Positions 36,023 to 38,885 of a stretch of DNA of 64,000 nucleotides are shown here, in pieces; within the stretch, counting starts at the first letter, position 1; each line of letters starts with the position of its first letter. The position numbers were made by a program, and so were the translations under genes. Below the pieces are notes generated by a model. That model ran no database searches. It was not told the DNA's origin and worked only from the letters and a program-made list of their open reading frames with translations. This DNA is from Marinifilum flexuosum (GTDB lineage: Bacteria > Bacteroidota > Bacteroidia > Bacteroidales > Marinifilaceae), in the NCBI RefSeq assembly GCF_003610555.1, contig NZ_RAPQ01000008.1, forward strand, positions 1,418,490 through 1,482,489, in the 5' to 3' direction.

Positions 36023-37351
36023 GTGACCGTGTTTCGTAAGTTAGTTCGCTTTGTAGAAGAAGAAAATCTGTTTTATCGTGATGAAAAAATTTTGGTTGCG
36101 GTAAGCGGAGGAATCGATTCTGTTGTTTTGCTTCATATGTTATTAAAAATGGAAGTAAACTGCGCCATTGCACATTGCAATTTTCATTTACGAGGCGATG
36201 AGTCGGATGGCGATTTTGAATTCGTGAAAAACCTGGCCAATAGTAACAACATTCCGTTCTATTCAAAAGATTTTGACACCAAAGCTTACGCTGATAACAA
36301 TAAGCTTTCTATTGAAATGGCAGCTCGTGAATTGAGGTATGAGTGGTTCAATCAAATTCTGGAATTAGAGAATTACCAATACATTGCCGTTGGTCATCAT
36401 GCCGATGATGTTGCAGAAACTGTACTGATTAACCTGGTAAGAGGTACCGGAATTCATGGCTTAACAGGAATAAAACCAAAATTGGGTAAGATAATTAGAC
36501 CACTGCTTCCTTTCACCCGAAAAGAGTTAGAAGAGTTTGCAGAAAGCGAAGGTTTAAATTATCGCGAAGATTCAACCAATCGAGAAACCGACTTTGTAAG
36601 GAATAAAATTCGCCACCAGGTAATTCCGGTTTTAGAGCAAATTAATCCAGCCATTAGAAAAACCATGAGCGAAAATGTTCAACGGTTTAAGGAGGTTGAA
36701 CAGATTTACAATGATGTAATTGAAGAGAATCGCTTGCATTTGGTTTTTCAGAGGGAGAATCAACTGTTAATCTCCATTGCACGATTGCAGGAATTGCCTT
36801 CTCCATCATCTCATTTGTTCGAAATATTATCACCTTACGGATTTCACCATCGTGATGTAAGAATGATTGCCAAATCGTTAGGTTCCATTTCTGGTAAAAG
36901 GTTCTTTTCATCCACACACCAGGTTTTAAGAGATAGAAAGTATTTGATTTTATCTGAATTGGAAGAAAATGATTCCAGCGAATATCTGTTGGAGGAAAAA
37001 TCAGGTTTGATTGAATTTCCAATGGAAATGGAGGCATCATTTATTGATAGAACGCCAAGCTTTAAATTTCCAAGCAATCCTGAAATTGCATGTCTGGATG
37101 CCAGTAAGTTGAAGTTTCCGCTTAAGCTGCGTAAATGGCAACAGGGAGATAGTTTCCGTCCGATAGGCATGAAGGGAAACAAGAAAATATCCGATTTCTT
37201 TATCGATCAAAAGTTTTCTTTACAGGATAAGGAAAATACCTGGTTATTGATTTCTGGCGATAGAATTGCCTGGGTTGTTGGCCATCGTTTGGATGATCGA
37301 TTTAAGATTACCGCTACAACTACCAAAATATTTAAATTGGAGATGAAGTAG
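36023..37351 (+). CDS. tilS: tRNA(Ile)-lysidine synthetase
   Basis: 442 residues. ATP-pyrophosphatase P-loop 'VAVSGGIDSVVLLHML', 'AHCNFHLRGDESDGD', 'GHHADDVAETVLINLVRG' and 'DSTNRETDFVRNKIRH' define TilS; the C-terminal domain has 'LRKWQQGDSFRPIGMKG' and 'KKISDFFIDQKF'. It converts C34 of the CAU-anticodon tRNA-Ile to lysidine. The start is GTG (36023); there is no ATG near. It begins right after the AT repeat. The 363-bp element starts 8 bp past the stop. Confidence 0.92.
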   Translation: MTVFRKLVRFVEEENLFYRDEKILVAVSGGIDSVVLLHMLLKMEVNCAIAHCNFHLRGDESDGDFEFVKNLANSNNIPFYSKDFDTKAYADNNKLSIEMAARELRYEWFNQILELENYQYIAVGHHADDVAETVLINLVRGTGIHGLTGIKPKLGKIIRPLLPFTRKELEEFAESEGLNYREDSTNRETDFVRNKIRHQVIPVLEQINPAIRKTMSENVQRFKEVEQIYNDVIEENRLHLVFQRENQLLISIARLQELPSPSSHLFEILSPYGFHHRDVRMIAKSLGSISGKRFFSSTHQVLRDRKYLILSELEENDSSEYLLEEKSGLIEFPMEMEASFIDRTPSFKFPSNPEIACLDASKLKFPLKLRKWQQGDSFRPIGMKGNKKISDFFIDQKFSLQDKENTWLLISGDRIAWVVGHRLDDRFKITATTTKIFKLEMK

Positions 37352-37403
37352 CATCTGGTAATATTACGGTGCGCTGCATCTGTCTTCTCATCACGATTAC
37401 TTT

Positions 37404-37468
37404 CTATAAATATAACGCAACTCTGTTGCTTGATTTACATGAATGAATATGGTAGGGAATACCTTAAT
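37404..37468 (+). repeat. 65-bp repeat unit, copy 1
   Basis: Starts CTATAAATATAACGCAACTC; contains GCAACTCTGTTGC and GGTAGGGAATACC. Differs from copy 2 at four positions. Confidence 0.85.
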
Positions 37469-37606
37469 CTTTTCTTTTGGGATATTTTAAAGTATAGTGG
37501 TTGCGATTGGTTTTGATCCGCAATTTGGGTAAGAATTTGGCTTGGGAATTTAATTATCCTATAATAAAACGTTGCTCTGCACCTGGCTTTCCACAATTAT
37601 TATTGG

Positions 37607-37671
37607 CTATAAATATAACGCAACTCTGTTGCTTGAATTGCATGAATGAATATGGTACGGAGTACCTTAAT
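37607..37671 (+). repeat. 65-bp repeat unit, copy 2
   Basis: Same start; second hairpin here is GGTAC-GGA-GTACC, one base pair longer than in copy 1. Starts of the copies are 203 bp apart. Confidence 0.85.
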
Positions 37672-37802
37672 ATTTATAGAATGACATTGCTTGTTTTTTA
37701 AGGTGCAACGCACCGTAATATTTTGAGATTAAAAGCTAATACTTGACCCATAATTTATAAATTAGCCTCTACAATTAAACAACTAACCAATAAACTCAAA
37801 AC

Positions 37803-38885
37803 ATGATAAAACTAAAACACAGCCTAGCTATCTTTTTATTAGGCATGCTTTCTCTTTCAGGATTTTCTCAATCTCAGGAAATTAAAAGTGAGATTGAAGA
37901 GCTTAAGAATTACAACGAAAATTTAGACCACCGATTGGATCGTTTACAAAAAATGGTAGATGATATCATTTGGTTCGAAAGATTAGGTGATGTTGCTCAT
38001 ATCGATAAATTATACATTTACGGACCACCAAAGTGGAAGGAGAAAAATCCGACGGCAAAAGGAGCAGGGAATCCTGTAAAGTTTTGGACCTATGCCTTTT
38101 TTCCAAAAAACTTAGATGTCAATAAGAAGTACCCTTTAATGGTGTTGCCTCACGGTGGAGTACATGGCGATTTTACAACCTATTACACCCATATTGTTAG
38201 AGAGTTAATTGCTCAGGAATATATTGTTGTTGCTGCAGAATATCGTGGCAGTACAGGATACGGTAAAGGTCATTACGAGAAAATAGATTACGGTGGATTA
38301 GAGAATGAAGATGTTTATGCCAGCCGCAATTACATGATTGAAAATTACGATTTTGTTGATGATAATAGAGTAGGAATCATGGGGTGGAGCCATGGTGGAA
38401 TGATTACACTTTTCAATTTGTTTAATCACCCAAATGATTATAAAGTTGGATTTGCAGGAGTTCCCGTGAGTGATTTGGTTGCTCGTATGGGATACATGAC
38501 GCAATCATATCGCGATTTGTACTCGGCTGACTACCATATTGGCAAAACAGCCAATGATAATTTGGCTGAATATCGCAGGCGATCACCAGCTTGGAATACT
38601 CATAAATTTCAGAATACACCCTTATTGATTCATACCAATACCAACGACGATGATGTAAATGTTTTAGAAGTAGAGCATTTAATTAAATCGCTAAAAGCGG
38701 ATGGTAAAACATTTGAATATGAAATTTATCAGGCAGTTCCTGGTGGGCACTCTTTTGATAGAATGGACACAAAGAAGGCAAAAGAAATCCGTGTAAAGAT
38801 TTATAAGTTTTTGTCGAAGCAGTTAAAACCCAACAAACCTATAAATACTTTTAAAGATATTCAGAAAGCTGGGTATCGATTTTAA
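37803..38885 (+). CDS. Secreted S9-like alpha/beta-hydrolase (peptidase/esterase)
   Basis: 360 residues with a signal peptide ('AIFLLGMLSLSGFSQ'). After a short coiled-coil (about 25-50) comes an alpha/beta-hydrolase domain: 'PLMVLPHGGVHGDF' (oxyanion hole), 'AAEYRGSTGYGKGHYEKIDYG', nucleophile elbow 'GIMGWSHGGMITLFN', acid 'LIHTNTNDDDVNVLEVEHL' and 'GGHSFDRMD' (His). These are the marks of prolyl oligopeptidase (S9)-type serine hydrolases lacking the propeller. Substrate unknown; it acts in the periplasm or outside. Terminator at 38904-38938. Confidence 0.85.
   Translation: MIKLKHSLAIFLLGMLSLSGFSQSQEIKSEIEELKNYNENLDHRLDRLQKMVDDIIWFERLGDVAHIDKLYIYGPPKWKEKNPTAKGAGNPVKFWTYAFFPKNLDVNKKYPLMVLPHGGVHGDFTTYYTHIVRELIAQEYIVVAAEYRGSTGYGKGHYEKIDYGGLENEDVYASRNYMIENYDFVDDNRVGIMGWSHGGMITLFNLFNHPNDYKVGFAGVPVSDLVARMGYMTQSYRDLYSADYHIGKTANDNLAEYRRRSPAWNTHKFQNTPLLIHTNTNDDDVNVLEVEHLIKSLKADGKTFEYEIYQAVPGGHSFDRMDTKKAKEIRVKIYKFLSKQLKPNKPINTFKDIQKAGYRF

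Follow-up and report, generated by a model that had tools for sequence, protein, structure and literature searches.

Downstream of tilS in Marinifilum flexuosum lies a 363-base element (positions 37360-37722 of the window, the 64,000-nucleotide stretch of DNA analysed here), which very probably belongs, as two partly degraded units, to a dispersed family of REP/REPIN-like repeats whose partner is a subclass 1.2 TnpA. We regard the family as REP/REPIN-like, distinguished by a tag and a partner subclass that are both new, and infer its mode of movement by analogy with characterised repeats.

Structure of the element and of the repeat unit

The ends of the element are inverted repeats matching at 20 of 22 positions. 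Between them are two inner repeats (37403-37470 and 37606-37673) identical at 62 of 68 positions, enclosed in a direct repeat of 114 nt with 82% identity and a spacing of 203 (Table 1). Two exact copies of the 25-mer core TATAAATATAACGCAACTCTGTTGC are present in the window and none in 100 shuffles, AATATTACGGTGCG matches exactly at either end of the element, and single-strand folding of the region is more favourable than that of shuffled sequences (z = -3.0). A previous sequence-only reading had described the inverted ends, the start 8 bp past the tilS stop codon and a second hairpin of the inner repeat that differs in stem length between the copies; all were borne out, this hairpin, the third of the unit, having a stem of 4 bp in unit 1 and 5 bp in unit 2. 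The same reading had proposed two near-identical units of 65 bp, and whilst the inner repeats are indeed near-identical, the natural unit is about 165-175 bp long and has four hairpins. Window unit 1 is without the right-most of these (REP4), and the left-most (REP1) is degraded in window unit 2.

Table 1. Features of the element downstream of tilS and its neighbours (window coordinates)
Feature	Position	Strand	Details
tilS, upstream neighbour	36023..37351	+	stop at 37351; element begins 8 bp later
Left terminal inverted repeat, including REP1 of unit 1	37360..37381	+	tag AATATTAC, hairpin 37368-37380
REP2 of unit 1	37404..37429	+	tag CTATAAATATAAC, hairpin GCAAC-TCT-GTTGC (37417-37429); aligns to R1 (L001:1513-1679)
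REP3 of unit 1, degraded	37451..37463	-	GGTA-GGGAA-TACC; unit 1 without REP4
Inter-unit spacer	37469..37569		
REP1 of unit 2, degraded	37570..37583	+	CGTTGC-TCT-GCACC
REP2 of unit 2	37607..37632	+	tag CTATAAATATAAC, hairpin GCAAC-TCT-GTTGC (37620-37632)
REP3 of unit 2	37654..37679	-	hairpin GGTAC-GGA-GTACC, tag AATATTTATAG complementary to REP2 tag
Right terminal inverted repeat = REP4 of unit 2	37701..37722	-	GGTGC-AAC-GCACC and GTAATATT
Prolyl-oligopeptidase-like (S9) protein, downstream neighbour	37803..38885	+	named by sequence inspection

Alignment of complete copies gives a unit in which four GC-rich hairpins, two pointing each way, follow the order REP1> REP2> <REP3 <REP4. The consensus of REP1 is GGTGC-NNN-GCACC, and the others read CTATAAATATTNC-GCAGC-TCT-GCTGC (REP2), GGTAC-GGA-GTACC-AATATTTATAG (REP3) and GGTAC-AGC-GTACC-GTAATATT (REP4). 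Read in its own orientation, each has an A/T-rich tag at its 5' side, the long form of which, CTAYMAAYRTT, is found at REP2 and REP3 and the short form, AATATTAC, at REP1 and REP4. As REP1/REP4 and REP2/REP3 form inverted pairs, the unit consists of two nested REPINs. The four-hairpin structure is supported by compensatory base changes: 96.8% of cells are paired across the aligned units, six of 31 pairs have changes on both sides (none of 500 shuffles scored as high), and pairing falls to at most 56% when the partners are slid. Neither GTAG/GTGG nor CGTC is present as the tag, which is CTAYAAATAYT or AATATTAC.

Distribution of the units in the genome and in relatives

Copies were listed using BLAST and covariance searches, with units counted by a covariance model, R1, giving approximately 41 units at 22 intergenic loci in the M. 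flexuosum genome; both the ends and the units recur, as the sequence-only reading had suggested should be checked. Only at L012, where the poorly matched tail of a divergent half-copy enters a 143-aa ORF, does any of the 41 units overlap a predicted ORF body. They are placed in both orientations between unrelated genes, and several loci are arrays of two to five units each; the copies have diverged, several are degraded and the number of units varies among arrays. In having a short 5'-tagged hairpin in many dispersed copies, an intergenic location and inverted pairing, these sequences resemble REPs and REPINs. At four loci (L114, L115, L120 and L124; G000 C1:892119, 266792, 1250042 and 911925, respectively) the units are found directly behind a rho-independent terminator, and an extra flanking repeat, TTGGTGTTTTCCCTTTAATGATGAATGTTT, is common to all four. 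A repeat of 440-510 bp, in which a short ATGAAAAAAC start and a AAATCCCGAAC..GTTCGGGATTT hairpin are found, alternates with the units at L107 and L108 (G000 C1:2087000-2090700 and 299500-303000).

The gap downstream of tilS, another comparison that had been proposed, differs between sister species. Two units are present in M. flexuosum and one complete unit in each of the sister species G001 and G002, with decayed pieces in G003, G004 and G015, no units in G011, and a unit-tnpA-unit arrangement in G012, which belongs to another genus. Because this one relative has the whole cassette at the site, it was probably already occupied in an ancestor of the family, and the window copy would be a tnpA-less leftover in which one unit has become two. 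In its left half the G001 unit matches the corresponding half of window unit 1, and in its right half it resembles that of window unit 2, hence a duplication of one unit in the window lineage is the simplest account, and is preferred also because G001 and G002 have a single unit. Comparison of the inter-unit spacer with tnpA, the C2 array and the tilS-tnpA region of G012 showed no similarity above that of shuffles, leaving unsupported the idea that tnpA was deleted from between two units. In G009 (L095, around 2805-2840) a REP-like sequence with a weak R1 match supplies the last codons and stop of tilS, and in G015 (L093) only a 3' remnant is left of the S9 peptidase gene downstream of tilS.

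Neither G001 nor G002 has the element at L114, a site that represents the only empty junction at the level of sequence; no target duplication was seen there, at a single locus whose borders are blurred by other changes. L118 was considered as an empty site in G003 and rejected, being a decayed remnant rather than a clean junction. The array beside tnpA has five units in M. flexuosum against two in G002.

Association with subclass 1.2 TnpA and alternative explanations

On contig C2, five tandem units lie just upstream of an intact tnpA, encoding P0001, with the array ending around 70 bp before the gene; on contig C3, a complete unit directly follows a frameshifted copy of tnpA. The genome thus contains a Y1 transposase gene flanked by the same hairpins as those dispersed elsewhere. 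P0001 is 152 aa long, matches the Pfam Y1_Tnp family (7e-24) and passes the NCBIfam transpos_IS200 model (58.9 bits, cut-off 55), but fails the NCBI REP_Tyr_transpos (RAYT) model (22 bits, cut-off 80). Its motifs are DHIH, WQ and YVLNQEEHH, the tyrosine motif having NQ and not NP, and on these the enzyme fits subclass 1.2 (Y---Q--HH, DH[IV]H, WQ, approximately 150 aa). A profile built from 12 proteins of this kind aligned with the solved ISDra2/IS608 transposases at both the HUH and tyrosine motifs (E 2e-15). The sequence-only reading had anticipated REPIN or MITE-like elements with a Y1/RAYT-like transposase elsewhere in the genome: the REPIN-like structure, the dispersal and the Y1 neighbour were all recovered, although the element is a double REPIN with four hairpins and the enzyme is of subclass 1.2, not a classical RAYT. 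Two other palindrome families are located near two further subclass 1.2 genes in the genome; the palindrome family GGGGCGYTAGCCC has 11 sites (the reversed pattern has none), and the family CTCGGG-CCCGAG has six.

Two class 2.6-like Y1 proteins of the YIHNNP type are encoded in the same genome (L241 and L242; G000 C1:2249590 and C2:202414), raising the alternative that the hairpins belong to these RAYT-type transposases and not to subclass 1.2. However, their genes have another palindrome, CCGCACGAATCCTTTCGTGTGGT, in their flanks, with no R1 match nearby; hence they serve as an internal control, and were rejected as the partner, this being the least probable of the alternatives considered here.

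R1 matches were found in 17 of 58 relatives, with TnpA present in 16 of those 17 as against 26 of the 58 overall. Across the phylum (247 genomes), TnpA is encoded by 14 of the 16 genomes with R1 matches compared with 93 of the 247 (Fisher p = 3e-5, in a test that ignores relatedness). R1 matches lie beside tnpA in the relatives G002, G004 and G012, and a unit is located within 300 bp of tnpA in five distant genomes (G264, G294, G246, G227 and G069). It appears that the elements can outlive the enzyme, since G001 and G003 have many units but no close P0001-type TnpA, whilst G024, G260 and G282 have units and no TnpA at E <= 1e-20.

Generality was assessed using 80 other named subclass 1.2 loci. 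Hairpins tagged with CTAYMAAYRT(T) are present at 1.28 per kb of non-coding DNA beside these 80 genes, against 0.038 per kb in other non-coding DNA, a 34-fold enrichment that is somewhat optimistic because the tag was partly derived from those same flanks; 66 were found in 33 loci, and one in the distal control. The strict tag-plus-hairpin pattern occurs at only 33 of the 80. In the 80 loci, hairpins with arms of at least 7 fall from 1.0 per 500 bp next to the gene to 0.09 at 1.5 kb, yet simple hairpin density is only twofold enriched over other non-coding DNA, hence the claim rests on the tag together with the hairpin and not on hairpins alone. Stem sequences vary by lineage and track TnpA similarity (Mantel p = 0.0005, 32 loci). 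The Draconibacterium orientale L199 flank gave nine BLAST pieces, about half of them near tnpA and the rest short and remote, and is weakly informative.

By analogy with TnpA-REP, the units would be mobilised by TnpA: the enzyme would bind the tagged hairpins whilst the DNA is single-stranded, cut near the tag, and move or copy units to new intergenic sites, as is thought to occur with GTAG-tagged REPs. Units would expand in tandem too, and such growth could result from ordinary recombination or slippage.

Three further explanations need to be weighed against this mobilisation. The hairpins might act in mRNA as a stabiliser of the tilS 3' end or as a terminator, the DNA itself being immobile; the element begins so close to the tilS stop codon that it would be expected to be co-transcribed with the gene, eight terminator-like matches were found where 0.3 are expected in shuffles, and the hairpins show compensatory changes. 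Against this, units are found in either orientation between unrelated genes, most units are also matched by R1 on their opposite strand, at lower scores, and the related G011 lacks a unit at tilS. Several copies lie behind a separate intrinsic terminator, the hairpins have no intrinsic-terminator T-run, the A/T-rich tag aside, and no Rfam family exceeded threshold in the element region, where a PreQ1 match was sub-threshold. A role purely as structured RNA is consequently considered improbable.

That the units are instead neutral leftovers whose spread is due to recombination and segmental duplication alone, their adjacency to tnpA being historical, would accord with the diverged and degraded copies and unequal arrays, but not with the presence or absence of a unit at the unrelated intergenic site L114, nor with tag-hairpin pairs recurring next to TnpA genes, with differing stems, across many lineages; we regard it as very unlikely. 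Slighter still is the likelihood that the element is a MITE derived from a classical insertion sequence of the DDE type having AATATTACGGTGC ends, as the inverted ends in the window might suggest: these ends are themselves hairpin REPs that recur internally as REP2 and REP3, no target duplication was seen at the one junction compared (L114, with its blurred borders), and the enzyme flanked by units is a Y1/HUH protein.

Comparison with known systems

REPs and the transposases associated with them serve as a model of domesticated mobile DNA. To our knowledge, the known cases belong to class 2 (RAYT), and a GTAG tag is present in most of them. On balance, we favour the view that CTAYMAAYRTT hairpins constitute a third REP superfamily, after GTAG and CGTC, and that subclass 1.2 TnpA mobilises them both in Bacteroidota and in several further phyla; the IS200-side branch of Y1 enzymes would therefore have domesticated double-REPIN REP systems of its own. 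A class 1 subclass described as REP-free here has hairpins with a distinct and recognisable tag, providing a testable substrate for an uncharacterised group of enzymes, a simple aid to annotating palindromes of Bacteroidota genomes that lack an explanation, and a case for comparison in tracing the origin of REP systems from IS200-type transposases. No description of the CTAYMAAYRTT tag was found in a literature search whose scope excluded most subscription papers and all bioRxiv preprints.

The M. flexuosum enzyme shares with TnpA-Y1 subclass 1.2, as defined by Quentin 2018 (PMC6006769), the motifs Y---Q--HH, DHIH and WQ, a length of approximately 150 aa and a low copy number. That subclass, found mostly in Bacteroidota, was given a REP status of 'no' and is generally without IS200-type terminal hairpins, whereas the M. 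flexuosum gene has tagged hairpins in its flanks. The REP search in that study used a GT[AG]G-based pattern, with some class 2 and 3 groups inspected by hand, and the subclass 1.2 hairpins would be invisible to it because their tag is not GT[AG]G.

As in the REP/REPIN and TnpA-REP (RAYT) system, or 'REPtron' (PMC6006769; PMC8266576), inverted pairs of tagged hairpins are dispersed between genes and flank a low-copy Y1/HUH gene, each Y1 lineage having its own hairpin family. The M. flexuosum family differs in its tag, CTAYMAAYRTT or AATATTAC with no GTAG or GTGG, in having four hairpins per unit, and in an enzyme of class 1, on the IS200 side, rather than class 2. With IS200/IS605 and palindrome-associated derivatives it has in common the HUH-Y family, hairpins with a guide-like tag on the 5' side and, likely, single-strand chemistry; it is distinguished from them by nested inverted hairpin units that are mostly gene-free, the gene being present in one or two copies. 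The GTAG- and CGTC-tagged palindromes of Di Nocera 2013 (PMC3733652) are likewise short tagged stem-loops that form dimers and arrays, but the tag, stem and loop of the M. flexuosum family are different.
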